A stretch of DNA of 64,000 bases from Halocalculus aciditolerans (GTDB lineage: Archaea > Halobacteriota > Halobacteria > Halobacteriales > Halobacteriaceae), in the NCBI RefSeq assembly GCF_014647475.1, contig NZ_BMPG01000001.1, positions 558,001 through 622,000 on the forward strand, read 5' to 3'. Each line of letters starts with the position of its first letter. Positions within the stretch are counted from its first letter, which is position 1. Position numbers and translations under genes: made by a program. The notes under the pieces are model-generated. The model saw nothing but the letters and a program-made list of their open reading frames with translations, was not told the origin of the DNA and ran no database searches. This document shows positions 13,100-62,818 of this stretch, one piece after another.

Positions 13100-14398
13100 A
13101 TGGCTGACGACGACGAGGAAGACTGGTTCGAGCGCGCGCTCCGCGAAGAGGACGGCGAATCCGAGGAGTCCGAGGACGAAGCGCGCGAAGCGGGCGACGA
13201 ACCCGCGGAGCCGGCGGAGACAGCCGACGCCGGCGACGTCGACGCCGACGGATCAGCCGAGGGCGAGTCCGCGCCGGCGGCCGACTCCGAGTTCGACTTC
13301 GACACCGAACCAGAGCCGGAAGCCGAACCCGAACCGGAACCCGGACCAGACGCCGAATCCGAATCGGCGTCCGAGTCCGAACCAGACGCCGAGTCCGAAC
13401 CGGCGTCCGACGACGAGTTCGCCGACGCCTTCGCGACTGACACGGCCGAGGAGCCGGCAGGCTCTGAGAGTGCCGGCGAGTTCGGAATGGGTGAGTCCGA
13501 GCCGGCGTCCGACGACGAGTTCGCCGACGCCTTCGGCGGTGGAGGCGGTGGTGGGGGCGGTGGCGGTGAGTTCGGGTTCGACCTCGACGAGGGCGGGAGC
13601 GGCGGCGACGGCGGCGGTGGCGGGTTCGGCTTCGACCTCGGTGGTGACGGGTCGCCCGGCGGCGCGGCCGAGGAGGAGTTCGACGAGGCGTTCGAGACCA
13701 ACATCCCCCGCATCGACCTCGGCATCGAGGGGCTGGACGCGATGGTGCAGGGCGGCGTCCCCGACCGCAGCCTCATCGTCGCTATCGGCTCGGCGGGAAC
13801 GGGGAAGACGACGTTCGGCCTTCAGTTCCTCAATCAGGCCATCGAGAACGACGAACGCGGCGTCTACATCACCTTAGAGGAGACCCGCGAGCGCATCGTG
13901 CAGTCCGCGTCCGAGAAGGGCTGGCCGTTCGAGGAGTACATCGAGCGCGGCGACCTCGCCGTCGTCGACTTAGACCCCGTCGAGATGGCGAACTCCCTGA
14001 AGAACATCCGGAACGAACTCCCGGCGCTCATCGAGGATTTCGGCGCGTCCCGCCTCGTCCTCGACTCCGTCAGCCTCCTCGAGATGATGTACGACGACCA
14101 GGCCGTCCGCCGCACCGAAATCTACGACTTCACGAAAGCGCTGAAGAAGGCCGGCGTCACCACGATGCTCACCTCGGAGGCGAGCGACGACAACGCCTTC
14201 TCCTCGCGCTACGGCATCATCGAATATCTCACTGACGCCGTCATCGTCCTCCGCTACGTCCGCCCCGAGGACTTCCGGGAAACCCGTCTCGCCATCGAGA
14301 TACAGAAAATCCGCGACGCCAACCACTCCCGCGAGACCAAACCCTACGAGATCACGAACAACGGCATCTCCGTCTACCGCCAGGCGAACATCTTCTAG
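13100..14398 (+). CDS. KaiC/RadA-like ATPase with acidic N-terminal extension
   Basis: A 432-residue protein. Residues 1 to about 190 are an acidic, low-complexity region (Glu/Asp/Ser/Pro then Gly-rich runs) with the segment SEPASDDEFADAF repeated. The rest is a single KaiC-type P-loop domain: GSAGTGKTT near 231-239, a Walker-B-like RLVLDSVSLL, and the C-terminal YRQANIF. Such proteins are often labelled HTR-like in haloarchaea and lack the second KaiC domain. A GGGGGTGG purine tract 9-16 nt before the ATG supports this start. Role unknown; a signalling ATPase is likely. Confidence 0.85.
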   Translation: MADDDEEDWFERALREEDGESEESEDEAREAGDEPAEPAETADAGDVDADGSAEGESAPAADSEFDFDTEPEPEAEPEPEPGPDAESESASESEPDAESEPASDDEFADAFATDTAEEPAGSESAGEFGMGESEPASDDEFADAFGGGGGGGGGGGEFGFDLDEGGSGGDGGGGGFGFDLGGDGSPGGAAEEEFDEAFETNIPRIDLGIEGLDAMVQGGVPDRSLIVAIGSAGTGKTTFGLQFLNQAIENDERGVYITLEETRERIVQSASEKGWPFEEYIERGDLAVVDLDPVEMANSLKNIRNELPALIEDFGASRLVLDSVSLLEMMYDDQAVRRTEIYDFTKALKKAGVTTMLTSEASDDNAFSSRYGIIEYLTDAVIVLRYVRPEDFRETRLAIEIQKIRDANHSRETKPYEITNNGISVYRQANIF

Positions 14399-16041: not shown

Positions 16042-16103
16042 CCGTCTCCCCTCGACGCCCGACGACGCGAGCGCTGTCGCTCGACGACCAGCCCGGTCTG
16101 CGG

Positions 16104-16240
16104 GGAGAGGGATTTGAACTTTGGTCGGACGTGCTCGCTGACTCGCGCCGACGGCGCTCGTCTTCCCGCGATTCTCACTCGCTGCGCTCGCTCCGAATCG
16201 CGTTCGCTGCGCGCGCCCTCCCGAGTTCAAATCCTCTCCT
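16104..16240. repeat. tRNA-3'-end-like inverted repeat, long form
   Basis: The left arm GGAGAGGGATTTGAACT (16104-16120) pairs with the right arm AGTTCAAATCCTCTCCT (16224-16240), apart from one G-tract difference. The arms match the T-arm and acceptor end of tRNA-Leu at 16.4 kb. About 100 bp of GC-rich sequence lies between the arms. Confidence 0.75.
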
Positions 16241-16277
16241 GAAAGTGAACACAGTCGCTCCGCGACGGGTTCGACAT

Positions 16278-16342
16278 GCGAGGAGCGTGATTTGAACTTT
16301 GGTCGCAAATCGGAGATTTGCTCCCTGATTCAAACTCCTCGC
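16278..16342. repeat. tRNA-3'-end-like hairpin element
   Basis: Outer stem GCGAGGAG (16278-16285) pairs with CTCCTCGC (16335-16342), and inner stem GCAAATC (16305-16311) pairs with GATTTGC (16315-16321) around a GGA loop. The segment 16275-16298 matches 22 of 24 bases at the tRNA-Leu 3' end (16421-16444). It shares GATTTGAACTTTGGTCG with the element at 16104 and is homologous in reverse orientation to the element downstream of tRNA-Val. Confidence 0.8.
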
Positions 16343-16423
16343 TCGCAGTTATTCTCGCTCCGCTCGCGTGAGTAGTACGAACGCGAGCAGGGAAGAGCCA
16401 CGCTCTGACCGTGCTCGAAAACA

Positions 16424-16508
16424 TGCGAGGAGAGGGATTTGAACCCACGAACCCCTGCGGGAGCGGATCTTAAGTCCGCCACCTTTGGCCAGACTCAGTC
16501 ATCCTCGC
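16424..16508 (-). tRNA. tRNA-Leu(TAA)
   Basis: An 85-nt class II tRNA read on the minus strand. The 5' acceptor GCGAGGA pairs with TCCTCGC before discriminator A; the anticodon loop contains TAA in GGACTTAAGATCC; a variable arm precedes GGTTCAAATCC of the T arm. No intron is visible and CCA is not encoded. It lies 55 bp downstream of the ferredoxin gene on the same strand. Confidence 0.95.
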
Positions 16509-28687: not shown

Positions 28688-28762
28688 GGGTTGGTGGTCT
28701 AGTCAGGCTATGACACCTCCTTGACATGGAGGAGGCCGGCGGTTCAAATCCGCCCCAACCCA
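28688..28762 (+). tRNA. tRNA-Val(GAC)
   Basis: A 75-nt tRNA. The acceptor GGGTTGG pairs with CCAACCC before discriminator A; anticodon GAC lies in CTCCTTGACATGGAG; GGTTCAAATCC is the T loop. No intron. It is divergent from the trp operon, about 130 bp from the trpD start. Confidence 0.95.
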
Positions 28763-28823
28763 CTTTCTGACGAAACAACGACGACGAGCGAAGCGAGGAG
28801 TCCGTTTTTCGCCGAAAGTGATC

Positions 28824-28891
28824 GGGCGGATTTGAACTAGGGAGCAACTCGGAGAGTTGCGACTGAGGTTCACAATCCGCCCCACCCCACT
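28824..28891. repeat. tRNA-3'-end-like hairpin element downstream of tRNA-Val
   Basis: The left arm GGGCGGATTTGAAC (28824-28837) pairs with the right arm GTTCACAATCCGCCC (28868-28882), with one bulged C. The inner stem GCAACTC (28844-28850) pairs with GAGTTGC (28854-28860) around GGA. The right arm and flank (28867-28891) nearly repeat the tRNA-Val 3' end at 28741-28764. Confidence 0.8.
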
Positions 28892-49433: not shown

Positions 49434-50441
49434 ATGCCACAACCAAGCAGACCACGCAAAGGCTCGATGGGGTTCGGTCCCCGGAAGCGCGCGGCCAGTG
49501 AAGTTCCACGCTTCAGCTCTTGGCCGAGCGACGACGGGCAGCCGGGCCTCCAGGGCTTCGCCGGGTACAAGGCAGGCATGACGCACGTCGTGACGGTCGA
49601 CGACCAACCGGACTCCCCCACGGAAGGGATGGAGACCTCGGTCCCCGTCACTATCGTTGAAACACCACCGATGCGAGCGGCCGCAGTGCGCGTCTACGAG
49701 GACACGCCGTACGGTCAGAAGCCCCTCACGGAAGTGTGGGCGGACGACCTCGACGAGAACCTCGACCGCGCGCTCTCCGTCCCCGAAACGGGCGGCGACC
49801 CCGACGTCATCACCGAAGCGATCGAGAACGGTGACGTCAGCGACGTTCGCGTCATCACACACACCACGCCGGACGTTCTGTCCGGCGTGCCGAAGAAGAA
49901 ACCCGACGTGATGGAGACGCGCGTCGGCGGCGGTTCCATCGCGGACCGCGCCGACTTCGCGCTCGACCTCCTCGGCGACGGCGGCGAACACGAGTTCGGC
50001 GACGTCTTCCGAGCGGGCGAGTTCCTCGACGCCGCAGGCGTCACGAAGGGGAAGGGCACCCAGGGCCCGGTCAAGCGCTGGGGCGTCCAGAAACGCAAGG
50101 GCAAACACGCCCGCCAGGGGTGGCGGCGCCGTATCGGTAACCTCGGCCCGTGGAACCCCAGCCGTGTTCGCTCGACGGTCCCCCAGCTCGGTCAGACGGG
50201 GTACCACCAGCGCACGGAACTGAACAAACGCCTCCTCGACTTCGGTGAGGAGGACGACGTGAACGCCGACGGCGGCTTCGTCAACTACGGCGAAGTCTCC
50301 GGCGCGTACGCGCTCGTCAAGGGCTCGCTCCCCGGTCCGGACAAACGCCTCCTGCGTTTCCGGCCGGCGGTCCGCCCGAACGAATCGCCGCGCCTCGACC
50401 CCGAGGTGCGCTACGTCAGCACGGAGAGCAAGCAGGGATAA
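49434..50441 (+). CDS. rpl3: Ribosomal protein L3 (uL3)
   Basis: A 335-residue archaeal L3. MPQPSRPRKGSMGFGPRKRA at the N terminus, GYKAGMTHVV, and VTKGKGTQGPVKRWGVQKRK are hallmarks; the long internal acidic extension is normal for haloarchaea. It binds 23S rRNA near the peptidyl-transferase centre. ATG start; 3-bp gap to rpl4. Confidence 0.97.
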   Translation: MPQPSRPRKGSMGFGPRKRAASEVPRFSSWPSDDGQPGLQGFAGYKAGMTHVVTVDDQPDSPTEGMETSVPVTIVETPPMRAAAVRVYEDTPYGQKPLTEVWADDLDENLDRALSVPETGGDPDVITEAIENGDVSDVRVITHTTPDVLSGVPKKKPDVMETRVGGGSIADRADFALDLLGDGGEHEFGDVFRAGEFLDAAGVTKGKGTQGPVKRWGVQKRKGKHARQGWRRRIGNLGPWNPSRVRSTVPQLGQTGYHQRTELNKRLLDFGEEDDVNADGGFVNYGEVSGAYALVKGSLPGPDKRLLRFRPAVRPNESPRLDPEVRYVSTESKQG

Positions 50442-50444
50442 ATC

Positions 50445-51197
50445 ATGCAGGCAACCGTACGCAGCCTCGACGGCGACGACGCTGGCACGCTGGACCTCCC
50501 GGCGGTCTTCGATTCCGACTTCCGCCCGGACCTCATCCAGCGCGCCGTGCTCGCCGCTCAGGCCAACCGAAAACAGAAATACGGCGCGGACGAGTTCGCG
50601 GGTCTCCGCACGTCCGCTGAATCCTTCGGGAGCGGTCGCGGGATGGCCCACGTCCCCCGCAGTGAGGGACAGGGTGCTCGCGTTCCGCAGACGGTCGGTG
50701 GCCGGAAGGCCCACCCGCCGAAGAAGGAGAAAGACCAGTCGCTCGACCTCAACACGAAAGAGCGGAAGGCGGCCGTCCGGAGCGCCATCGCGGCGACCGC
50801 GGACGCCGACCTCGTCGCCGAACGCGGCCACGTGTTCGACGACGACACCGAGATTCCGCTCGTCGTCTCCGACGACTTCGAGGACCTCGTGAAGACGAAG
50901 GAGGTCGTCTCCTTCCTCGAAGCCGTCGGCGTCGACGGCGACATCGAGCGTTCCGAGGACGGCCGGACCGTCCGCGCGGGGCAGGGGAAGCTCCGCGGTC
51001 GGAAGTACAAGCAGCCGAAGTCCATCCTCTTCGTCACGTCCAGCGAGGCCGGCCCGTCGAAGGCCGCGCGGAACCTCGCCGGCGTGGACGTCGCCACCGC
51101 GGCGAACGTCAGCGCGGAGGACCTCGCGCCCGGCGCGGACGCCGGACGCCTCACCGTCTGGACGGAAGCCGCAGTCGAGGAGGTGAGCGAGCGATGA
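50445..51197 (+). CDS. rpl4: Ribosomal protein L4 (uL4)
   Basis: A 250-residue archaeal L4 lining the exit tunnel with its extended loop (GRGMAHVPRSEGQGARVPQT). The KAHPPKKEK segment and the C-terminal alpha/beta domain fit. Its last codons overlap rpl23 by 4 bp (ATGA), coupling translation. Confidence 0.97.
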   Translation: MQATVRSLDGDDAGTLDLPAVFDSDFRPDLIQRAVLAAQANRKQKYGADEFAGLRTSAESFGSGRGMAHVPRSEGQGARVPQTVGGRKAHPPKKEKDQSLDLNTKERKAAVRSAIAATADADLVAERGHVFDDDTEIPLVVSDDFEDLVKTKEVVSFLEAVGVDGDIERSEDGRTVRAGQGKLRGRKYKQPKSILFVTSSEAGPSKAARNLAGVDVATAANVSAEDLAPGADAGRLTVWTEAAVEEVSER

Positions 51198-51454
51198 GTG
51201 ACCGCGACGTCATCGACTACCCGCTCGTCACCGAGAAAGCGATGAACGACATGGACTTCGACAACAAGCTCCAGTTCATCGTCGACATCGACGCGCACAA
51301 GCCCGACGTCCGTGACGCCGTCTCCGAACAGTACGACGTCACCGTCACCGACGTGAACACGATGATCACGATGAAGGGCGAGAAGAAAGCCATCGTGACG
51401 CTCTCCGAGGAGGACGACGCGCAGGACGTCGCCTCCCGCATCGGGGTGTTCTAA
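51194..51454 (+). CDS. rpl23: Ribosomal protein L23 (uL23)
   Basis: 86 residues, the tunnel-exit protein that docks signal recognition particle. Typical YPLVTEKAMNDMDFDNKLQF start and VTDVNTMITMKGEKKAIV strand. Compact archaeal form without N-terminal extension. 2 bp before rpl2. Confidence 0.96.
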   Translation: MSDRDVIDYPLVTEKAMNDMDFDNKLQFIVDIDAHKPDVRDAVSEQYDVTVTDVNTMITMKGEKKAIVTLSEEDDAQDVASRIGVF

Positions 51455-51456
51455 CA

Positions 51457-52179
51457 ATGGGACGCAGAATCCAAGGGCAGCGACGCGGGCGCGGGACGTC
51501 GACGTTCCGTGCGCCGTCGCACCGATACAAGGCGAATCTCACGCACAAGAACGCAGAGGACGAAGACGTCCTCGCCGGCGAAGTCGTCGGCGTGGAGCAC
51601 GACCCGGCGCGCAGCGCGCCGGTCGCGCAGGTCGAGTTCTCCGACGGCGACCAGCGCTACGTCCTCGCTCCCGAGGGCGTCGGCGTCGGCGACGCCATCG
51701 AAGTCGGCGTCTCCGCGTCCATCGAACCGGGCAACACGCTGCCGCTCGGCGAGATTCCCGAGGGCGTGCCCGTCTGCAACGTCGAGAGTCAGCCGGGCGA
51801 CGGCGGGAAGTTCGCGCGCTCCAGCGGCGTGAACGCGGACCTCATCACGCACGAGCGTGACGCCGCGGTCGTTCAGCTGCCGAGCGGCGAGATCAAGCGG
51901 CTCTCCCCGGACTGCCGCGCCACCATCGGCGTGGTCGCCGGTGGCGGCCGCACGGAGAAGCCGTTCGTGAAGGCCGGGACGAAACACCACAAGATGAAGG
52001 CGCGAGGCACGAAGTGGCCGCGCGTCCGTGGCGTCGCGATGAACGCCGTCGACCACCCGTTCGGTGGCGGTGGCCGCCAGCACCCCGGTCGTCCGAAGTC
52101 CGTCTCGAAGAACGCGCCGCCGGGCCGCAAGGTCGGGGACATCGCGTCCCGCCGCACCGGTCGCGGAGGTGGCAAGTAA
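51457..52179 (+). CDS. rpl2: Ribosomal protein L2 (uL2)
   Basis: A 240-residue protein essential for subunit association. MGRRIQGQRRGRGTSTFRAP and the conserved histidine region MNAVDHPFGGGGRQHPGRPK, which sits near the peptidyl-transferase site, are intact. 3-bp gap to rps19. Confidence 0.97.
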   Translation: MGRRIQGQRRGRGTSTFRAPSHRYKANLTHKNAEDEDVLAGEVVGVEHDPARSAPVAQVEFSDGDQRYVLAPEGVGVGDAIEVGVSASIEPGNTLPLGEIPEGVPVCNVESQPGDGGKFARSSGVNADLITHERDAAVVQLPSGEIKRLSPDCRATIGVVAGGGRTEKPFVKAGTKHHKMKARGTKWPRVRGVAMNAVDHPFGGGGRQHPGRPKSVSKNAPPGRKVGDIASRRTGRGGGK

Positions 52180-52182
52180 CCC

Positions 52183-52605
52183 ATGAGCACGCAATACCGA
52201 ACCGGCCGCGAGGGTGAGTTCACCTACCGCGGCTACGAGCTCGACGAACTCCAGGAGATGGACCTGGACGAAGTCGCGGAACTGCTGCCCGCACGCCAGC
52301 GGCGAACCATCGTCCGTGGACTCTCCGAGGAACACCAGAAGGTCCTCGAGAAAGCTCGCAAGCGAAGCGAGGAGGAGTCGGCGAACAACCCGATCCGGAC
52401 GCACCTGCGCGACATGCCGGTGCTCCCGGAGTTCGTCGGGAAGACGTTCGCCGTCTACGACGGCCACGAGTTCGGCCGCGTCGAGGTCGAACCCGAGATG
52501 CTCGGGCACTACCTCGGCGAGTTCGAACTCACGCGCACGTCCGTCGAACACGGGCAGGCGGGTATCGGCGCGACCCGCTCCTCGAAGTTCGTGCCGCTCA
52601 AGTAA
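52183..52605 (+). CDS. rps19: Ribosomal protein S19 (uS19)
   Basis: A 140-residue archaeal S19 contacting 16S rRNA in the head. [20 protein letters not shown] and [11 protein letters not shown] are the diagnostic blocks; the N-terminal [14 protein letters not shown] is the archaeal extension. 3-bp gap to rpl22. Confidence 0.97.
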
Positions 52606-52608
52606 ACC

Positions 52609-53070
52609 ATGGGAATCCACTACAGCGTCGAAACCGACCCCGAGACCACGGCGAAAGCCATGCTCCGGGAGCGGCCGATCAGCTTGAAGCACAGCAAGGC
52701 CATCGCGCGCGAAATCAAGGGGAAGACGGCGACGGACGCCGTCTCCTACCTCGAAGACGTCGTCGCGGAGAAACGCTCCGTCCCCTTCAAACAGCACAAC
52801 GATTCCGTCGGGCACCGCTCCGACATCGACGGCTGGGACGCGGGCCGCTATCCGAACAAGGCCAGCAAGGCGTTCCTCGACCTCCTCGAGAACGCCATGA
52901 ACAACGCCGACCAGCAGGGGTTCGATGCGGACAGCATGACCGTTATGCACGTCGCCGCGCACAAGGTCGGGGAGTCCCCGGGGCGAAAGCCGCGGGCGAT
53001 GGGTCGCGCCACGGCGTGGAACACCACGCAGTGCGACGTCGAACTCGTCCTCGAGGAGGCAAGTGAATAA
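52609..53070 (+). CDS. rpl22: Ribosomal protein L22 (uL22)
   Basis: A 153-residue protein lining the exit tunnel. The KASKAFLDLLENAMNNADQQ helix and RKPRAMGRATAWNTTQCDVE loop are characteristic. Stop and the rps3 start overlap in TAATG. Confidence 0.97.
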   Translation: MGIHYSVETDPETTAKAMLRERPISLKHSKAIAREIKGKTATDAVSYLEDVVAEKRSVPFKQHNDSVGHRSDIDGWDAGRYPNKASKAFLDLLENAMNNADQQGFDADSMTVMHVAAHKVGESPGRKPRAMGRATAWNTTQCDVELVLEEASE

Positions 53071-54020
53071 TGGCTGACGAACTCGAATTCATCGAAGAAG
53101 GCCTGCAGCGGTCGCAGATTAACGAGTTCTTCGCGGAAGAACTCGGCCGCGCGGGCTACGGTGGTATGGACGTCGCCCACACGCCGATGGGGACGCAGAT
53201 CGTCCTCCACGCGGAGAAACCCGGTATGGTCATCGGGAAGGGCGGGAAGAACATCCGGAAGGTCACCCGGCAGCTCGAGGAGCGATTCGACCTCGAGGAC
53301 CCGCAGATCGACGTGCAGGAGGTCGAAGAACCCGACCTGAACGCACAGATCGTCGCGGACCGCCTCGCGAACGCGCTCGAGCGCGGCTGGTACTTCCGGA
53401 AAGCGGGTCACACGACCATCGACCGCATCATGGAATCCGGCGCGCTCGGCGCTGAGATCGTCCTGAGCGGGAAGGTCACGGGTGCCCGGAGCCGCGTCGA
53501 GAAGTTCAACCGCGGCTACATCAAGCACAACGGCGAGCCCGCCGAGGAGATCGTCGACCACGGCCAGGGTGTCGCGGTCATGAAGCTCGGCACCATCGGC
53601 GTGAACGTGAAGATCATCCCGCCGAACGCGGAGCTCCCGGACGACTTCGAGATCGACGAGGAGGCCGACATCTCGGACCTCGTCGTCGACGAGGAGGAAG
53701 CCGGCGAGAGCGTCGAGGAACTCCTCGAAGGCGAGCCCGCCGAGGACGAGGCCGCGGACGCCGCGGAAGCGGCGGACGTCGCTCAGGAAGCCATCGCCGA
53801 AGAAGAGTTCGAGGCCGAGGAGGGCGCGAGCCCGACCTCGCCGCCGGACTCCGAGGAAGCGGTGGAGGAAGCCCTCGACGAGCTCGAAGCGGAAGTCGAA
53901 GCGGACGCCGAAGACGTCGACGAAGAGGACTTCGACGACGTCGAAGCCGGCGCTGCCGAGGAAGCAGACGAGCTCCTCGAAGAGATGGAAGGCGAAGAAG
54001 AAGAAGAAACGGAGGAGTAA
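53070..54020 (+). CDS. rps3: Ribosomal protein S3 (uS3) with long acidic tail
   Basis: 316 residues. The KH domain has GKGGKNIRK near residues 53-61 and the C-terminal S3 domain ends around residue 190. The remaining about 125 residues are almost wholly Glu/Asp/Ala (EEEFEAEEGASPTSPP and so on), a haloarchaeal acidic extension of unproven role. Starts in TAATG with rpl22. Confidence 0.96.
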   Translation: MADELEFIEEGLQRSQINEFFAEELGRAGYGGMDVAHTPMGTQIVLHAEKPGMVIGKGGKNIRKVTRQLEERFDLEDPQIDVQEVEEPDLNAQIVADRLANALERGWYFRKAGHTTIDRIMESGALGAEIVLSGKVTGARSRVEKFNRGYIKHNGEPAEEIVDHGQGVAVMKLGTIGVNVKIIPPNAELPDDFEIDEEADISDLVVDEEEAGESVEELLEGEPAEDEAADAAEAADVAQEAIAEEEFEAEEGASPTSPPDSEEAVEEALDELEAEVEADAEDVDEEDFDDVEAGAAEEADELLEEMEGEEEEETEE

Positions 54021-54023
54021 TAC

Positions 54024-54224
54024 ATGGCAATCCTCTACCCCGAAGAAATCCGTGACATGACGCCCGCGGAGCGGGAGAACGAGCTCGAAGAGCTCGAGAC
54101 CGAACTCCTGAACGCGAAGGCCGTGAAGGCCGCTGGCGGCATGCCGGAGAACCCCGGTCGTATCGGGGAGCTCCGGAAGACGATCGCGCGACTGAAAACG
54201 ATTCAGAACGAAGAAAGCGACTAA
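54024..54224 (+). CDS. rpl29: Ribosomal protein L29 (uL29)
   Basis: 66 residues, a two-helix protein at the tunnel exit: [20 protein letters not shown] then [20 protein letters not shown]. Canonical archaeal length. 2-bp gap to the RNase P subunit gene; the sui1-like gene found here in some archaea is absent. Confidence 0.95.
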
Positions 54225-54226
54225 CG

Positions 54227-54667
54227 ATGCCGCTCACACCCGAAACCCTGACCCGACACGAACTCGCCGGCCTCCACGTCGAGGTCGTCGAGTCGACCGA
54301 CCCCTCGCGGGTCGGTCTCTCGGGTCGCATCGTCCGTGAGACGATGAACACGCTCGTCATCGAAGCCGGTGGCGAGGGGGAACCGGGTGTGCGGCAGGTC
54401 GAGGCGGCCGAGCGGAGTTCGGCCGGTCGACCGGGCGGGGAGGCGGCTTCCCGCAAACAGGTCCCGAAGCGGGGGACCGTCTTCGAGTTCCGACTCACAG
54501 ATGAATCCGCGGCAACCCGGGAGGGTGCCGGGACCGCGTCGGAACCGGTCAGTGGCGAGAGCCATACTGCCGGCTACGGCGCGGCCTACGTTACGGTGGA
54601 TGGAGTCGAACTGCTCTCACGACCCGCATTACGTTCCGAGAACGGAGTCGATTCGAAATGGCAATAG
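54227..54667 (+). CDS. rnp1: RNase P protein component 1 (Rpp29/Pop4)
   Basis: A 146-residue subunit of ribonuclease P, which matures tRNA 5' ends. [20 protein letters not shown] and [15 protein letters not shown] match the Sm-like core, and [12 protein letters not shown] the second half. An insertion of about 30 Gly/Glu/Ala-rich residues separates the two, making it longer than most archaeal homologues. Overlaps rps17 by 10 bp. Confidence 0.9.
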
Positions 54668-54984
54668 GATTAAACGTTGACGAGCCGTCGGGCGAATGCG
54701 CCGACGATAGCTGTCCGTTCCACGGGAGCCTTTCCGTGCGCGGGCAGATCATCGAGGGCGAAGTCGCCTCGACGGCAATGGACAAAACCATCGTCGTGGA
54801 ACGAGAGTACGACGTCTTCGTACCGAAGTACGACCGGTACATGAAGCGTCGTTCCCGCGTTCCGGCTCACGCCCCGGAGTGTTTCGACATCTCCGAAGGC
54901 GACGTGGTTCGTATCGCAGAGACCCGACCGCTTTCCAAGACGAAATCCCACGTCGTCGTGGAGATCACGGAGAGTGAAGACTGA
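54658..54984 (+). CDS. rps17: Ribosomal protein S17 (uS17)
   Basis: A 108-residue OB-fold protein binding 16S r[23 protein letters not shown] and [20 protein letters not shown] are diagnostic. The N terminus has an archaeal C-x4-CPFHG segment. It begins 10 bp inside rnp1 and its stop overlaps rpl14 (TGATG). Confidence 0.96.
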
Positions 54985-55382
54985 TGGAAGCGATCAAAGC
55001 TGACGTCACGCAGGGTCTGGAGAAAGGCTCGATCATTACGTGCGCCGACAACACCGGCGCGCGCGAACTGAAAGTGCTCTCCGTCATGGGCTACCAGGGG
55101 ACGAAGAACCGTCACCCGAAAGCCGGTGTCGGCGACAAGATCACCGTCTCGGTCACCAAGGGGACGCCGGAGATGCGTCGCCAGGTGCTCGAAGCGGTGG
55201 TCGTCCGCCAGCGGAAGTCGATCCGCCGGCCGGACGGCACGCGCGTGAAGTTCGAGGACAACGCCGCGGTCATCATCGACGACCTCGGCGAGCCTCGCGG
55301 GACCGAGATCAAGGGTCCGATCACGCGCGAGGTCGCAGAACGCTACGGGAGCGTCGCCAGCACGGCAACGATGATCGTCTAA
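54984..55382 (+). CDS. rpl14: Ribosomal protein L14 (uL14)
   Basis: 132 residues. [20 protein letters not shown] and the basic [20 protein letters not shown] block are typical of archaeal L14, which contacts the small subunit in a bridge. One base separates it from rpl24. Confidence 0.97.
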
Positions 55383-55383
55383 C

Positions 55384-55740
55384 ATGAGTGAACAACCACG
55401 CAAACAGCGAACGCGGTCCCGCCGCGCGCCCCTGCACAAGAAGCAGAAGCAGGTTCGAGCGCACCTCACGGAGGACCTCCGTGAGGAGTACGGGCAGCGC
55501 CGCGTCCGCGTCGCCACGGGCGACACCGTCGAGGTGACGCGCGGCGACGACGCCGGCACGGAAGCCGAGGTCGCGCGTGTCGACCTGACGGACGCGAAGG
55601 TGTACGTCGAGGACGTCACCATCGAGAAGGCGGACGGCGAAGAAGTCCTTCGCGCGCTCGACGCGTCGAACCTCGTCGTCACCGACCTCAACCTCGAAGA
55701 CGACGTGCGCGCGGACCGCATCCGAGGTGACAACGAATGA
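55384..55740 (+). CDS. rpl24: Ribosomal protein L24 (uL24)
   Basis: 118 residues. The KOW motif lies in [20 protein letters not shown], preceded by the archaeal N-terminal [16 protein letters not shown] helix. An assembly-initiator protein of the large subunit. Overlaps rps4e by 4 bp. Confidence 0.96.
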
Positions 55741-56441
55741 GTAACCACCAGAAACGACTGTCGGTGCCGAAGTCGTGGCCGGTCGAGCGGAAGACCGCCA
55801 CGTTCACGGCGAAGGCGGGCGCGGGCCCGCACGGCGAATCGGGCGTTCCGCTCGTCGTCGTGCTCCGGGACGTGCTCGGCTACGTCGACTCGGCGAAGGA
55901 AGCGAAGTACGCCGCACACCACGACGGTGTGCTCGTCAACGGCGGCTCGGTGAGCGACATCAACCGCCCCATCGGGATGTTCGACCTGCTCGGCTTCCCG
56001 GAGCGAGACGAGTACTACCGCGTGTTCCCCGACGAGGGCGGCCGGCTCGGTCTGACGGAGATCGACGCGGCCGACGCGGACGCGAAACTCGGGAAAGTCG
56101 TCGACAAGACGCTCGTCTCCGGCGGCCGCGTGCAGCTGAACCTGCACGACGGGCAGAACATCCTCATCGACGAGGACGAAGACGAGTACTCCGGCGGCGA
56201 CTCCATCGTCGTCGAGAACGAGACGGACGACATCGTCGCGCACTTCCAGTACGAGGAAGGCGCGCTCGTCACCGCCGTCGCCGGCCAGCACGCCGGTGAA
56301 ATCGGCGAAGTCGACGAGATCACGGTCACGCCCGGTAGCGCGTCGAACACCGTCGAGGTGTCGACCGACGACGGGTCGTTCGAGACCGTCGACGAGTACA
56401 TCGTCGTCATCGACGAGAACTTCACGGGTGATGAGGAATGA
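55737..56441 (+). CDS. rps4e: Ribosomal protein S4e (eS4)
   Basis: A 234-residue archaeal/eukaryotic protein with an S4-like RNA-binding domain ([20 protein letters not shown]), a central domain, and a KOW motif in [20 protein letters not shown]-terminal [20 protein letters not shown] is diagnostic. Overlaps rpl5 by 4 bp. Confidence 0.97.
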
Positions 56442-56950
56442 GCGTCACCGATAGCGAGATGCGCGAACCGCGCGTCGAGAAGGTCGTCGTCCACATGGGC
56501 GTCGGTCAGGGTGGCCGCGAACTCCAGAACGCCGAGGAGATCCTCGAAGAGATCACCGGCCAGGAGTCGGTTCGAACGACGGCGACGGAGACGAACCCGA
56601 CGTTCAACATCCGCGAGGGCGACCCGATCGGCGCGAAGGTCACGCTCCGCGACGACGCAGCCGAGGACTTCCTCGCCCGCGCGCTCGACTTCACGTCGCT
56701 GCGCCGCCGCCAGTTCGACGAGACCGGGAACGTGAGCTTCGGTGTCGACGAACACACCGACTTCCCGAGTCAGGAGTACGACCCGAACATCGGTATCTAC
56801 GGGCTGGACGTCACGGTGAACCTCGTGCGTCCCGGCTACCGCGTGTCGAAGCGCGACAAGCACTCCCGTCAGATCCCGAAGAACCACCGTCTCACTCCCG
56901 AGGACGCCATCGCGTACCTCGAGGAGCACTTCGACGTGGAGGTCAACTGA
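56438..56950 (+). CDS. rpl5: Ribosomal protein L5 (uL5)
   Basis: A 170-residue 5S-rRNA-binding protein. [20 protein letters not shown] and [20 protein letters not shown] fit. The stop overlaps the rps14 start (TGATG). Confidence 0.97.
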
Positions 56951-57108
56951 TGAGCGAATCCGAAACCGCACAGGAAGAGACCGGGCAGTCCCACGAGTGC
57001 CGGCGCTGTGGCCGTAAGCAGGGCCTCGTCGGCAAGTACGACGTGTGGCTGTGCCGACAGTGCTTCCGCGAGATCGCCCGCGACATGGGCTTCAAGAAGT
57101 ACAGCTAA
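56950..57108 (+). CDS. rps14: Ribosomal protein S14 (uS14, zinc type)
   Basis: 52 residues, with the zinc-binding CRRCGRKQG and [15 protein letters not shown] halves of the C+ form. Short archaeal version with a polar N terminus. Overlaps rpl5 by one base and lies 2 bp before rps8. Confidence 0.96.
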
Positions 57109-57110
57109 CA

Positions 57111-57503
57111 ATGACAGGACGAGATCCCCTGGCCGACGCGCTCTCCGGTGTGAACAACGCCGAGAGCGTCGGTCATCTGGAACACGACATCAAGCCCGCG
57201 TCGAACACTATCGGGTCCATTCTCGAAGTGTTCTACGACCGTGGTTACATCGGCGGCTTCGAGTTCGTCGAGGACGGTCGCGGCGGGCGGTTCGACGTTG
57301 AACTGACGGGCGCTATCAACGAGTGCGGGCCGGTGAAGCCCCGCTACTCCGTGAGCGCCGACGACTACGAGAAATGGGAGAAGCGATACCTCCCGGCCCG
57401 TGACTACGGGACGCTCATCGTCACGACGAGTCACGGCATCATGAGCCACTACGAGGCCCGCGACGAGGGCATCGGTGGTCAGGTTATCGCGTACGTATAC
57501 TAA
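57111..57503 (+). CDS. rps8: Ribosomal protein S8 (uS8)
   Basis: 130 residues, binding helix 21 of 16S rRNA. DPLADALSGVNNAESVG and the C-terminal LIVTTSHGIMSHYEARDEGI are typical. The ATG after the rps14 stop gives MTGRDPLADA; an upstream frame belongs to rps14 sequence. Stop overlaps rpl6. Confidence 0.97.
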   Translation: MTGRDPLADALSGVNNAESVGHLEHDIKPASNTIGSILEVFYDRGYIGGFEFVEDGRGGRFDVELTGAINECGPVKPRYSVSADDYEKWEKRYLPARDYGTLIVTTSHGIMSHYEARDEGIGGQVIAYVY

Positions 57504-58039
57504 TGGCACGAATCGAACTCGAAATTCCGGCAGACGTCGACGCCGAGGTCGACCACCTCGACCTCACCGTCGACGGCCCGAACGGCTCGGTCACTCGCCG
57601 CCTCTGGTACCCGGACGTCACGGTCACCGTCGAGGACGACACCGTCGTCATCGAGTCCGACGAGGAGGACGCGAAGACGCGTTCGACTCTCGGGACGTTC
57701 GAGAGCCACGTGGCGAACATGTTCCACGGGGTCGTCGACGGCTGGGAGTACCGGATGAAAGTGCATTACTCTCACTTCCCGATGCAGGTGAACGTCGAGG
57801 ACGGCGAAGTCGTCATCGAGAACTTCCTCGGGGAGCGAGCGGCGCGCCGCACGCCCGTTCGTGGCGACACGGACGTCCAAGTCGACGGTGAAGAGCTGAC
57901 GCTCTCCGGGCCGTCGAAGGAGGACGTCGGGCAGACGGCCGCCGACATCGAGCAGCTCACGCGCGTCACGGACAAGGACACGCGCGTGTTCCAGGACGGT
58001 GTCTACATCGTCCAGAAACCCGCGAAAGGAGGTGCCTAA
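57503..58039 (+). CDS. rpl6: Ribosomal protein L6 (uL6)
   Basis: A 178-residue protein with two similar domains near the factor-binding site. EIPADVDAEVDHLDLTVDGP, FESHVANMFHGVVDGWEYRM and LTRVTDKDTRVFQDGVYIVQ match archaeal L6. Starts in TAATG with rps8. Confidence 0.97.
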   Translation: MARIELEIPADVDAEVDHLDLTVDGPNGSVTRRLWYPDVTVTVEDDTVVIESDEEDAKTRSTLGTFESHVANMFHGVVDGWEYRMKVHYSHFPMQVNVEDGEVVIENFLGERAARRTPVRGDTDVQVDGEELTLSGPSKEDVGQTAADIEQLTRVTDKDTRVFQDGVYIVQKPAKGGA

Positions 58040-58042
58040 TAG

Positions 58043-58750
58043 ATGGCTGACGAAATCGAGTCCATCGAGGACATCAGTGGTGTCGGGCCGTCGAAGGCCG
58101 AGGCGCTCCGCGACGCCGGCTACGAGTCCGTCGAGGACGTGAAGGCCGCATCGCAGGACGACCTCGCCGACGTCGACGGTATCGGGAACGCCCTCGCCGC
58201 CCGTATCAAGGCGGACGTCGGCGGGCTCGAAGTCTCCGAGGAGACCGAAGCGGCGGTCGAAGAAGAGACCGAGGAAGCCGAAGCGGAGGAAGCCGAGGAA
58301 GTCGAAACCGAGCTTCAGCCGCGCGGGCACGCCGACAAGACGCCGGAGCTGACCGAGGAGGAAGAACGCCTCCTCAAGCAGCGAAAGCGCATCGGCAAAC
58401 CCCAGTTCTTCCGTCAGGACTACCACAAGAAGAAGCGCACGCCGACGTCGTGGCGTCGACCCCGCGGTGGGCTGTCGAAGCAGCGACGCGGGCAGAAGGG
58501 CAAAGGCGACAAGGTCGAAGCCGGGTTCCGAACGCCGAAAGCGGTGCGCGGCAAGCACCCGAGCGGCTTCGAGGAAGTCCACGTGCACAACGCGGCCGAC
58601 CTCGACGGCGTCGACGCGGACACCGAGGCCGCCCGCATCGCCTCGACGGTCGGCGCGCGGAAGCGCGAGACCATCGAGGAGAAGGCCGAAGACATGGGCG
58701 TTCGCGTCCTCAACCCGACCTACGTCGAAGTCGAGGTAGACAATGAGTGA
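58043..58750 (+). CDS. rpl32e: Ribosomal protein L32e with N-terminal HhH extension
   Basis: 235 residues. The L32e domain occupies about residues 100-230 ([20 protein letters not shown], then [20 protein letters not shown]). Before it lies a helix-hairpin-helix module ([33 protein letters not shown]) and an acidic linker, a known haloarchaeal add-on. Overlaps rpl19e by 8 bp. Confidence 0.95.
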
Positions 58751-59192
58751 TCTGAGCGCACAGAAACGACTCGCAGCCGACGTCCTCGACGTCGGGGAGA
58801 ACCGCGTCTGGTTCGACCCCGATTCGCAGGGCGAAATCGCGGACGCCATCACGCGCGACGACATCCGCGACCTCGTCCAGCAGGGGACGATTAAAGCGAA
58901 GGACGCACAGGGCAACTCCCGCGGTCGCGCACGCGAGCGCGACGCGAAACGTGCTTACGGGCATCAGACCGGTGCCGGTTCCCGCAAGGGGAAGAAGGGC
59001 GGCCGGTCGAACTCGAAGGACGAGTGGAAGAACCGAATCCGCGCACAGCGCCGGGAGCTCCGCGAGCGACGTGACTCCGGCGACCTCACGCCGACCCAGT
59101 ACCGGAAGCTCTACCGGATGGCGAACGGCGGCGAGTTCGATAGCGTCCGGCGGCTGCGCAACTACATCGAAGAGCACTACGGTGAACAATAA
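58743..59192 (+). CDS. rpl19e: Ribosomal protein L19e (eL19)
   Basis: 149 residues, helical, with [20 protein letters not shown] at the N terminus and [12 protein letters not shown] at the end. Binds 23S rRNA and an inter-subunit bridge. Overlaps rpl32e by 8 bp and rpl18 by one base. Confidence 0.97.
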
Positions 59193-59743
59193 TGGCTAGC
59201 GGCCCACGATACAAAGTACCGATGCGGCGTCGCCGCGAGGTCCGGACGGACTACCATCAGAGGTTGCGCCTCCTGAAGTCGGGGAAACCCCGACTCGTCG
59301 CTCGGAAGAGCAACAACGGAATCTCGGCGCAGCTGATCGTCATGGGACCGGACGGCGACATCACGGAAGCGAGCGCGAACGCACAAGACCTCACCGAGTT
59401 CGGCTGGGAGGCACCGACGGGTAACATGCCCGCGGCCTACCTCACCGGCTACCTCGCGGGGAAGCGGGCGGTCGACGCCGGCCTCGACGAGGCCGTGCTC
59501 GACATCGGCCTGAACACCGCGACCCAGGGGTCGAAGGTGTTCGCCGTGCAGGAAGGCGCTATCGACGCCGGCCTCGACGTGCCGCACAACGAGTCCGTGT
59601 TCGCGGACTGGCAGCGCACGCGCGGTCAGCACATCGCCGACTACGCGGAGCAGCTCGACGAGCCGCTCTACAGCGGCGAGTTCGACGCGACGACGCTCCC
59701 CGAGCACTTCGACGACGTGCTCGAAACACTCCAGGAGGACTAA
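59192..59743 (+). CDS. rpl18: Ribosomal protein L18 (uL18)
   Basis: A 183-residue 5S-rRNA-binding protein of archaeal L18/L5e type. [20 protein letters not shown] and the [20 protein letters not shown] helix are diagnostic. 1-bp gap to rps5. Confidence 0.97.
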
Positions 59744-59744
59744 C

Positions 59745-60380
59745 ATGAGCTACAACAACTGGGAACCCCAGACGCGACTCGGTCGACTCGTCCAGGACGG
59801 CGAGATCGACACGATGGAGGACGCGCTGAACTCCGGTCTCCCGCTGAAGGAGCCGGAGCTCGTCGATTCGCTCCTCCCGGGTCTCGAGGACGAAGTCCTC
59901 GACATCAACATGGTACAGCGCATGACTGACTCCGGCCGCCGCGTGAAGTTCCGCTGCGTCGTCGCCGTCGGTAACCGCGACGGCTTCGTCGGGTACGCGG
60001 AAGGCCGCGACGACCAGGTCGGTGGCGCGATTCAGAAAGCCATCGAGGTCGCGAAACTGAACATCATCGACGTCTCCCGCGGCTGTGGGTCGTGGGAGTG
60101 TGGCTGCGGGCGTCCGCACACGGTCGCGCTGAAGACGACCGGGAAGGCCGGCAGCGTCGAAGTGGAACTCCGCCCCGCCCCGCGCGGTCTCGGCCTCGCG
60201 GGCGGTGAGACGGTCCGGCACGTCCTCGACCTCGCCGGTATCGAGGACGTCTGGACGCATTCGTCCGGGAAGACGCGGACGACGGTGAACTTCGCGAAGG
60301 CGACGTTCAACGCGCTCCGCAACACCGCGGAGGCCCGCGTCCCGGAGCGCACGCGCGAGAAGCGCGAGGTGATCGAGTGA
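59745..60380 (+). CDS. rps5: Ribosomal protein S5 (uS5)
   Basis: 211 residues, at the mRNA entry site. [20 protein letters not shown] is the S5 RNA-binding domain and [20 protein letters not shown] the second domain. The stop overlaps the rpl30 start in TGATG. Confidence 0.97.
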
Positions 60381-60844
60381 TGCAGGCAGTTGTCCAGCTT
60401 CGCGGTGAAGTCAACATGCGTGACACGGTGGACGACACGCTGCAGATGCTCAACATTCACAGCGTGAACCACTGCGCGCTCGTCCCTGAGACGGAGACGT
60501 ACCAGGGCATGGTCGCGAAAGTGAACGACTACGTCGCCTACGGCGAGCCCTCCGAGGAGGTCGTCGCGTCGCTCATCGAGCGCCGCGGTGAGCCCCTCGA
60601 AGGCGACGCCGACGTCGACGACGAGTGGGTGGCGGAGAACACCGACTACGACGACGTCGCCGACCTCGCGAGCGCGCTCCTCGACGAGGAGACGACGCTC
60701 CGCGACGCCGGTCTCGCGCCGGTGCTCCGCCTTCACCCGCCGCGCGGCGGCCACGAGGGCATCAAGCAGCCGCGCGCGCAGGGCGGCCAGCTCGGCAAAC
60801 AGTCCAGCGAGGATATCGACGAACTCCTCCGGAGGATGCGATAA
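60380..60844 (+). CDS. rpl30: Ribosomal protein L30 (uL30)
   Basis: A 154-residue archaeal L30/L7e form. [20 protein letters not shown] and LRLHPPRGGHEGIKQPRAQG fit. I use the ATG at 60380; a GTG one codon earlier is possible. Overlaps rpl15 by one base. Confidence 0.96.
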   Translation: MQAVVQLRGEVNMRDTVDDTLQMLNIHSVNHCALVPETETYQGMVAKVNDYVAYGEPSEEVVASLIERRGEPLEGDADVDDEWVAENTDYDDVADLASALLDEETTLRDAGLAPVLRLHPPRGGHEGIKQPRAQGGQLGKQSSEDIDELLRRMR

Positions 60845-61326
60845 TGACGAGTAAGAAACGACGCCAGCGCGGGTCGCGCACGCACGGCGGCGGCACTCAC
60901 AAGAACCGGCGTGGTGCCGGACACCGTGGTGGCCGTGGCCGCGCCGGCCGCGACAAGCACGAGTTCCACAACTACGAACCGCTCGGGAAACACGGCTTCA
61001 CGCGTCCGGACAAAGTCCAGGACGACGTCGCCGAGATCAGCGTGCAGGAACTCGACGAGAACGCGGTGCTCTACGTCGAGGACGGGTCGGCCGAGGAGAC
61101 GGACTTCGGCTTCCGCATCGACGCGCGTGACGTCGTCGAGGACGGCCACGAGGTCGACGTCGTGAAAGTCCTCGGTGACGGTCAGGTGCGCAATCAGCTC
61201 GAAGTGACGGCGGACGCGTTCAGCGCGTCGGCGGTCGAGCTCATCGAGGAAGAGGGCGGCGACGCCGTGCTCTCCGAGCGCGCTGAGACTGCAGACGAGA
61301 ACGAGAGCGAAGAGAGCGAGAACTGA
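60844..61326 (+). CDS. rpl15: Ribosomal protein L15 (uL15)
   Basis: 160 residues. KKRRQRGSRTHGGGTHKNRR, GHRGGRGRAGRDKHEFHNYE and the acidic C terminus are typical of haloarchaeal L15. Start ATG overlaps the rpl30 stop (TAATG). 1 bp before secY. Confidence 0.96.
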   Translation: MTSKKRRQRGSRTHGGGTHKNRRGAGHRGGRGRAGRDKHEFHNYEPLGKHGFTRPDKVQDDVAEISVQELDENAVLYVEDGSAEETDFGFRIDARDVVEDGHEVDVVKVLGDGQVRNQLEVTADAFSASAVELIEEEGGDAVLSERAETADENESEESEN

Positions 61327-61327
61327 G

Positions 61328-62818
61328 ATGAGCTGGAAGGAGACGGCTGGCCCGGTCCTCACCCGCATGCCGACAGTGCGTCGGCCGGACGGTCACGTGC
61401 CGTTCAAGCGGAAGCTCATGTGGACCGGGATCGTTCTCCTGCTGTATTTCTTCCTGACGAACGTCTTCCTCTGGGGCCTCCAGGGCGACGGGAGCGACCT
61501 GTTCGGACAGTTCCGAGCGCTCCTCGCCGGCGGTCAGGGGACGGTCCTCCAGCTCGGTATCGGACCAATCGTCACGGCGAGCATCGTCCTGCAGCTTCTG
61601 GGCGGTGCGAACCTCCTCGGTTTGGACACGAACGACCCCCGTGACCAGCAGATCTACCAGGGCCTCCAGAAGTTCCTGGTGCTCGTGATGATCTGCCTGA
61701 CGGGGATTCCGATGGTGTTCCTCGGGAACTTCCTCCCGGCGAGCCCGCAGCTCGCGAGCAGCCTCGGCATCGGGATCTTCGGCGTACAGGTCATCCTGTT
61801 CGCGCAGATCTTCGTCGGCGGCGTGCTCATCCTCCTCTTGGACGAAATCGTCTCCAAGTGGGGTGTCGGGTCCGGTATCGGCCTGTTCATCATCGCCGGT
61901 GTCAGCCAGAGCCTCATGGGCGGGCTGTTCTACTGGGGCGGTGAGAGCGGGTCGATGGGCGTGATTCCGTTCTGGATCAACGTCATCCTCGGGAACGTGC
62001 AGGACGTGCCGGCGCTCTTCTCCGGCCAGGGGATTAACTTCCTCCTGTTCAACTCGAACGGCGGCCTGCTCGCCATCGTCACGACGGTCCTCATCTTCGC
62101 GGTCGTCGTGTACGCGGAGTCCGTCCGCGTCGAGATCCCGCTCAGTCACGCTCGCGTGAAGGGCGCACGTGGTCGGTTCCCCGTGAAGCTCATCTACGCG
62201 AGCGTCCTGCCGATGATCCTCGTTCGGGCGCTCCAGGCGAACATCCAGTTCCTCGGTCGCATCCTCTACAGCCAGCTCGGCGATTCGGGGATGCCGGACT
62301 GGCTGGGCGTCTACACGCAGGGCTCCGGCGGGTTCTCGCCCGTCGACGGCGTGTTCTACTATCTCGCGCCGATTCACAGCCCCGGGGACTGGATGTGGTT
62401 CGTGCAGGGCGTCTCCCAGGAGCCGTGGCAGATTCTGCTCCGCGTCTTCTTCGACTTGCTGTTCATGGTCGTCGGCGGCGCGATATTCGCCGTCTTCTGG
62501 GTGGAGACTGCGGACATGGGTCCGGAGTCGACCGCCCAGCAGATTCAGAATTCGGGGATGCAGATTCCCGGGTTCCGGCAGAACGTCGGCGTCGTGGAGA
62601 AGGTGATGGAGCGGTACATCCCGCAGGTCACCGTCATCGGTGGCGCGCTCGTCGGGCTGCTCGCCGTCGCGGCGAACATGCTCGGGACGATCGGGAACGT
62701 CTCCGGGACGGGGCTCCTGCTTACCGTCTCCATCACGTACAAGCTCTACGAGGAGATCGCGGAAGAACAGCTCATGAACATGCATCCGATGATGCGCCAG
62801 ATGTTCGGCAACGAGTAG
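61328..62818 (+). CDS. secY: Protein translocase subunit SecY
   Basis: 496 residues with about ten membrane helices forming the Sec61-type channel. The plug region follows helix 1; GIGPIVTASIVLQLLGGANL is helix 2, and VYAESVRVEIPLSHARVKGA is a conserved cytoplasmic loop between helices 5 and 6. The long extracytoplasmic insertion (GVYTQGSGGFSPVDG) is usual for haloarchaea. Last gene of the ribosomal operon, as in most archaea. Confidence 0.97.
   Translation: MSWKETAGPVLTRMPTVRRPDGHVPFKRKLMWTGIVLLLYFFLTNVFLWGLQGDGSDLFGQFRALLAGGQGTVLQLGIGPIVTASIVLQLLGGANLLGLDTNDPRDQQIYQGLQKFLVLVMICLTGIPMVFLGNFLPASPQLASSLGIGIFGVQVILFAQIFVGGVLILLLDEIVSKWGVGSGIGLFIIAGVSQSLMGGLFYWGGESGSMGVIPFWINVILGNVQDVPALFSGQGINFLLFNSNGGLLAIVTTVLIFAVVVYAESVRVEIPLSHARVKGARGRFPVKLIYASVLPMILVRALQANIQFLGRILYSQLGDSGMPDWLGVYTQGSGGFSPVDGVFYYLAPIHSPGDWMWFVQGVSQEPWQILLRVFFDLLFMVVGGAIFAVFWVETADMGPESTAQQIQNSGMQIPGFRQNVGVVEKVMERYIPQVTVIGGALVGLLAVAANMLGTIGNVSGTGLLLTVSITYKLYEEIAEEQLMNMHPMMRQMFGNE

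Follow-up and report, generated by a model that had tools for sequence, protein, structure and literature searches.

Arrays of hairpin units carrying copies of the local tRNA 3′ end in haloarchaea: candidates for small, target-templated mobile DNA

Introduction

Archaeal att regions have been placed at the T stem-loop and the 3′ end of tRNA genes (PMC8371274), and a paper on Haloquadratum walsbyi treats partial tRNA copies as prophage ends (PMC3119063). That paper, the closest that we found in the literature searched, also describes the SMR-A sequences of Haloquadratum walsbyi, the movement of which it calls enigmatic (PMC3119063). Two further kinds of DNA bear on the present case: integrons, which are reported from archaea (PMC9668308), and Streptomyces telomeres, the single-stranded DNA of which forms GCA loops closed by sheared G.A pairs (PMC4513846).

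Here we describe arrays of short hairpin units behind tRNA genes, starting from a 64,000-nt stretch of the Halocalculus aciditolerans genome (hereinafter the window, meaning the whole stretch that was analyzed). The preliminary description of the window had noticed partial copies of a tRNA-Leu 3′ end in a row and had read them as scars of successive integration and excision of elements using that tRNA as attachment site.

Results

Hairpin units behind tRNA-Leu(TAA) and tRNA-Val(GAC)

A repeat search bore out the three direct copies of the tRNA-Leu(TAA) 3′ end that had been noticed, placing them at 16096-16119, 16274-16297 and 16421-16444. The middle copy is, as had been described, identical to the copy in the tRNA at 22 of 24 positions (92%), reaching beyond the mature end, and the first two copies indeed have in common GATTTGAACTTTGGTCG (16111-16127 and 16289-16305), which is absent from the tRNA. 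The motif GATTTGAAC occurs eight times in the window against 0.12 expected, a count reached in none of 100 shuffles. In addition to the copies listed earlier, we found inverted copies of the tRNA-Leu end at 16329-16346 and 16225-16239; accordingly, the extra direct copies each serve as the 3′ arm in a long hairpin, and both stretches running from an inverted to a direct copy behind this tRNA fold as long hairpins. One unit consists of a spacer (S), an inverted copy (A′), a hairpin core (x) and a direct copy (A) that reaches from the T loop to slightly beyond the end of the mature tRNA, and the order along the minus strand is tRNA, spacer, A′, core x, A, spacer, A′, core x, A:

16424-16508, minus strand: tRNA-Leu(TAA), anchor of the array (ARAGORN; RF00005 match at G000:C1:574424-574508)
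16421-16444, minus strand: A0, the tRNA's own 3′ end, running from the T loop and stopping 3 nt beyond the mature end (repeat family and reading)
16347-16423, minus strand: S1, spacer from the tRNA end to the first inverted copy, containing the GAGCGGAGCGAG motif (reading)
16329-16346, minus strand: A′1, inverted tRNA-end copy that forms the 5′ arm of hairpin 1 (reading and fold)
16298-16328, minus strand: x1, type A hairpin core TCAGGGAG...CGACCAAA with an inner stem-loop (pattern match C1:574294-574334, which is window 16294-16334; fold)
16274-16297, minus strand: A1, first extra direct 3′-end copy, 3′ arm of hairpin 1 (repeat search)
16240-16273, minus strand: S2, second spacer (reading)
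16225-16239, minus strand: A′2, second inverted copy (reading and fold)
16120-16224, minus strand: x2, long hairpin core CTCGGGAG...CGACCAAA, about 105 nt (reading and fold)
16096-16119, minus strand: A2, second extra direct copy, more diverged, with 75% identity to the middle copy (repeat search)

The same type of unit stands behind tRNA-Val(GAC) at 28.7 kb, where reading and folding place a hairpin at 28824-28891:

28688-28763, plus strand: tRNA-Val(GAC), second anchor in the window (ARAGORN)
28764-28823, plus strand: spacer with GAGCGAAGCGAG at 28786-28797 (reading)
28824-28837, plus strand: A′ copying the tRNA-Val end (reading)
28838-28867, plus strand: x core of type A behind tRNA-Val (pattern match C1:586831-586871, which is window 28831-28871; fold)
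28868-28891, plus strand: A copy of the tRNA-Val end, with an extra T-loop base, TTCACAATCC (reading)

Three GAGCGNAGCGAG motifs occur in the window, where chance would give 0.30; all of them fall within the Leu and Val arrays and on the tRNA strand. The spacers, tens of nt to about 100 nt long, are free of genes, with no recombinase element between the copies, and none of the ten open reading frames scanned at 11.1-22.8 kb of the window encodes an integrase. Elsewhere in the window, ARAGORN calls a tRNA-Val at 13181-13274 that lies inside a long open reading frame and is without a match to the Rfam tRNA model, and is likely a false call; positions 49434-62818 hold an ordinary ribosomal protein operon (L3, L4, L2, S3, S4e, L5, L32e, S5) ending in secY.

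At all RF00005 loci of the whole genome (G000; 3.38 Mb in 27 contigs), the end of each tRNA, taken to begin at the T loop, was compared with the 400 nt that follow the gene. The tRNA's own end scored at least 28 downstream at 14 of 41 loci, as against 0.7% in comparisons with the regions behind other tRNAs and 0/41 in upstream regions. By a 17-nt criterion, at least one copy stands at 18 of the 41 loci; the loci lacking a direct copy by that criterion number 23/41 here, and 18/42 and 16/42 in two further genomes, G007 and G001, respectively.

Spread across the class and binding to tRNA loci

As a search pattern for other genomes, we used the commonest core type, type A (TTTGAA..., GAG, a variable loop, CGAC and GTTC), so that the resulting counts take in this type only and are undercounts. 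The pattern matched 243 of 391 genomes in the class, representing 71 of its 86 genera; for the reversed pattern, used as a control, two matches were seen among those listed (G027 and G224). A sample of the phylum gave the pattern in 28 of 53 genomes of the order and in none of the 241 other genomes of the phylum. The pattern also turned up in Halorutilus salinus (L044, L045) and in two MAGs that bear the name Euryarchaeota (L025, L036); at these four loci the direct arms are identical or close to identical to the ends of the local tRNAs. The host lineage of the units is taken to be the haloarchaea.

The units are bound to tRNA loci. After removal of flank duplicates and of two chance hits (L094 and L095), 117 of the 128 distinct hairpins selected by the pattern have an ARAGORN tRNA at most 600 nt upstream on the same strand. 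The direct copies begin at the GTTC of the T loop and continue past the mature end; in 116 of 117 cases the copy is nearer to the local tRNA than to other isotypes (mean score 17.1 vs 7.8), and the cores of this set always have one orientation relative to the tRNA. The 11 other hairpins were assigned by reading: four stand behind intron-bearing tRNA-Trp genes missed by ARAGORN (L173, L176, L202, L214), three seem to sit further inside extended arrays (L192, L195, L197), and the remaining four follow inserted DNA that has a displaced tRNA end or hairpin (L108, L111, the second copy in L156, L219). Units measure about 90-180 bp. Seventeen of the 117 A copies have one extra base, which differs between copies, at exactly TTCA^AATC in the T loop (e.g., window 28868-28891); it could be a junction mark, a functional bulge or a device that disables the copy. 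At one locus behind tRNA-Thr(CGT) (L156:3357-6225), a 2.9-kb stretch encoding a 435-aa DUF6895 protein lies between hairpins with the same 49-nt core. This is the only stretch between two hairpins with an open reading frame, its right side is without an A copy before S, and it may represent either a unit that carries a gene or an independent insertion.

At eight loci compared with Rfam, the cut-off was reached by the tRNA only, with no RNA family recovered for the unit. Searches of viral contigs gave two hits, both judged to be chance by reading, and neither these nor the plasmid and phage searches yielded a carrier element for the units.

Shared cores and local arms

Near-identical cores recur behind different tRNAs. 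The genomes G007, G001 and G000 together contain 77 A′-x-A units, of which the 72 with cores of at least 20 nt were clustered at 90% identity; seven of the 12 core clusters combine units from more than one tRNA species, and both arms of those units match the local tRNA. For instance, one 22-nt core has a single perfect match in G001 and four in G007, besides a copy with a single mismatch, at loci that by position are those of Leu-TAG, Arg-CCG, Lys-TTT, Arg-TCT and Leu-TAA (a sixth G007 match, with two mismatches, was left unplaced). In the Leu-TAA array of G007, the A copy of one unit is one base from the tRNA-Leu(TAG) end, its borders falling inside the shared GGTTCGAATCC; two more arrays, Arg-TCT of G007 and Val-TAC of G000, likewise contain a copy that is nearer to another tRNA for that amino acid. 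A scan for foreign copies with thresholds of 15 and 4 flagged nine, of which four in G001 and one in G007 belong to a neighboring tRNA-Met array and two in G007 are Leu-GAG/Leu-TAG look-alikes. The spacers in the G001 and G007 arrays also form families common to several tRNA loci (e.g., Leu-TAG of G007 and Val-CAC of G001), which suggests that whole S-A′-x units may travel together.

Folding, strand bias and covariation

Folding is biased toward the tRNA strand. In a set of 63 distinct units with 61 cores, chosen by their arms alone, this strand folds better than its complement in 53 of 63 units, with RNA and DNA parameters alike, although the two strands are close in DNA energy for each of the three window hairpins on its own. 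The sequence GCGNAGC is a very stable DNA mini-hairpin motif; the 61 cores contain 31 on the tRNA strand and one on the other, against a shuffle mean of 1.8. A crude loop search found a single GNRA tetraloop in 171 cores. A 52-nt consensus hairpin matches stretches of 20-27 nt in four Streptomyces/Kitasatospora plasmid records, with the best place within about 230 bases of the record end in all four (including NZ_CP108563.1 and NZ_CP108459.1; one of the records read as linear). There are thus hints, short of proof, that the unit folds as DNA. An excess of G.U pairs in type A cores was dropped as a sign of RNA, since the search pattern partly builds it in and the arm-selected cores lack it (31 vs 34); kink-turn, bulge-helix-bulge and box C/D structures do not fit by eye.

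The pairs of the inner stem change on both sides, from G-C to C-G and from A-T to G-C, across 22 sequences. Where the outer arms deviate from the tRNA, A′ alone does so in 209 cells, A alone in 54 and both alike in six, so that the arms do not covary (six cells vs 263). Taken together, these counts and the inner-stem pairing make the arms look like decaying copies of the tRNA, while the core keeps its pairing.

Turnover between related species

Gain or loss of copies is fast. G001 and G007 are congeneric species, and of the 42 orthologous tRNA loci at which they were compared, 19 differ in the number of 3′-end copies; the comparison has no outgroup, so these differences stand for gain or loss alike, and recombination between A copies very probably contributes losses. 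At ten loci picked for few gaps, flank identities range from 0.80 to 1.00, and the alignments shown contain clean differences such as 101 bp immediately after tRNA-Glu(CTC) and 137 bp after tRNA-Asp (at tRNA-Glu(TTC), the G001 stretch is cut short by a contig end). Exact tandem units of identical sequence also occur (e.g., L157), which slippage alone can produce.

Integrase-bearing elements at the same sites

A search of relatives for insertions and recombinase genes, as the earlier interpretation invites, recovered elements with a PF00589 integrase that split tRNA-Thr(CGT) from its array in two relatives. The distance from this tRNA to the array is about 25 kb in G300 and about 8 kb in G336, and in both a PF00589 gene adjoins the array. 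The end of the G300 element, the one read in detail (L111), has a tRNA-end copy without a preceding A′-x, and the array lies behind it. The G336 element between tRNA-Thr and the array (L325:573-5904) encodes, besides its PF00589 integrase, a DUF6884 protein and two that are TGT-like, a gene content that recalls DNA 7-deazaguanine modification systems.

Discussion

Comparison with known mobile elements sets the units apart from each kind considered. Like them, SMR-A are non-coding, haloarchaeal sequences of about 110 bp with inverted ends and no known transposase, but SMR-A sit in IS605-type elements and PATEs with fixed ends of their own, whereas the ends of the units copy the host tRNA (PMC3119063); instead of being inserted in IS605-type palindromes, 117 of 128 units stand behind a tRNA. 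MITEs resemble the units in being short and non-coding, with inverted arms, and in being spread through the genome, but the units lack the fixed terminal repeats of a transposase and their arms vary with the target: in place of constant terminal inverted repeats, the direct arm agrees with the local tRNA in 116 of 117 cases, as do both arms around shared cores. The hairpins of Streptomyces telomeres share GNA loops closed by sheared G.A pairs (PMC4513846); telomeres, unlike the units, are replicon ends and involve no tRNA, and the likeness is probably a convergence on a stable fold of single-stranded DNA.

The reading toward which we lean, tentatively, is that the array is made up of small, mobile, target-templated non-coding hairpin units that are anchored on tRNA 3′ ends and fold as a single strand. 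That the units are mobile or copy themselves we infer from their distribution and turnover. In the putative mechanism, the core on the folded tRNA strand would land at the T-loop sequence GGTTCRAATCC, which is common to nearly all tRNAs, and both arms would then be written from the tRNA where it lands, either by site-specific strand exchange on the folded strand or by hairpin self-priming, between which we make no choice. The putative enzyme would be supplied in trans, no unit encoding a gene for it. The spread of cores could also be gene conversion or homologous recombination within the T-loop homology, in place of transposition.

The main rival is passive template switching. Replication could by itself give rise to such arrays if template switching or hairpin-capped ends at tRNA palindromes made inverted triplications (A S A′ x A) and slippage then amplified and deleted them, with no dedicated element involved. 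The order A-S-A′-x-A is indeed that of an inverted triplication, and a precedent comes from yeast, where inverted copies are reported to form through hairpin-capped DNA (PMC10766183). Exact tandem units are expected under such a process, as is the faster decay of A′ than of A with seldom any covariation (209, 54 and six cells), which is how passive copies would behave. However, random switching should not remake the same core, and the core families are conserved across genera and tRNAs with their inner pairing kept; in the pattern set, moreover, the core has one orientation to the tRNA. We therefore consider this explanation unlikely. Simple slippage taken by itself was rejected, as it accounts for the exact tandem units and not for the shared cores.

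Next comes a role for the unit as a functional RNA in the 3′ trailer of the tRNA, serving in processing, quality control or as an antisense switch, with concerted evolution keeping it matched to the tRNA. The fixed place downstream of the tRNA, the fixed strand, the better folding of the tRNA strand and the compensation in the inner stem would all suit it. Yet an element of this kind sits poorly with the 23/41 (G000), 18/42 (G007) and 16/42 (G001) loci that lack a direct copy, with a copy number that differs at 19 of 42 orthologous loci, and with outer arms that show no compensatory change (six cells against 263). Likewise, one GNRA tetraloop in 171 cores contrasts with the commonness of GCGNAGC, a mini-hairpin motif of DNA. 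A trailer RNA thus appears distinctly unlikely.

An integron-like origin, with the hairpin as an attC-like site, the T loop as attI and S-A′-x as empty cassettes moved by a tyrosine recombinase, draws on a likeness of shape. In common with attC sites and cassette arrays, the units have a folded single-strand hairpin with a variable terminal loop, a GTT foot and an arrangement in arrays behind one anchor. The units form an imperfect, strand-polar hairpin with a GTT foot and a variable tip, with a fourth base that differs from the attC consensus (GTTC, not GTTR); the AAC...GTT foot, the short boxes, the variable terminal structure and the strand polarity all recall attC, the junctions fall in the T loop, and the 2.9-kb stretch of L156 places a DUF6895 gene between two hairpins of the same 49-nt core. 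The likeness is nevertheless in shape only: nearly all units are gene-free, their anchor is a T loop and their arms match the local tRNA, whereas both the 3′ end and the A′ would be wrong if a circular cassette arrived from another tRNA. On this balance we regard integron-like cassettes as very unlikely.

The scars of ordinary integrating elements that the preliminary description had proposed, in the manner of the att duplications of tyrosine recombinases, are highly improbable. Part of that proposal holds: the copies span the T loop to just past the tRNA end, which is the classical extent of an att site; PF00589 elements use the same kind of loci in relatives, standing at tRNA-Thr(CGT) beside such arrays in G300 and G336; Haloquadratum prophages leave partial tRNA copies (PMC3119063); and, as scars would predict, the loci are not static, differing in copy number at 19 of 42 orthologous loci instead of keeping one structure free of insertions in all relatives. 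The copies are, however, not bare scars, each being the arm of a hairpin, in units of about 90-180 bp, together with an inverted copy and a conserved core that is not derived from the tRNA. Integration and excision at one tRNA would not yield the same cores at several tRNA species, no integrase was found in the ten open reading frames at 11.1-22.8 kb, and the one element end read in detail (L111, in G300) has no A′-x before its tRNA-end copy; ordinary scars therefore explain neither the hairpin nor the sharing of cores.

A further step from target-templated hairpin units, and a rather doubtful one, is a class of selfish DNA that owns only its hairpin core: the folded strand would recognize the common T loop and land behind any tRNA gene, and the arms would be rewritten from the target. 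Such DNA, if real, would always be matched to its site, would leave the tRNA intact and would need no coding capacity.

The kind of unit looks undescribed, no description of it having been found in the literature searched, itself a part of the literature only. What we report is a repeat family that is bound to the 3′ ends of tRNAs, occurs in the majority of genera of a well-studied class of archaea and has arms adapted to each tRNA; it matches none of the types of mobile DNA or RNA element against which it was tested. These units can mislead the annotation of att sites and prophage ends in haloarchaea, and they bear on the question of why tRNA ends are favored sites of integration. If the units do move, they would show that an element can be retargeted by copying its target.
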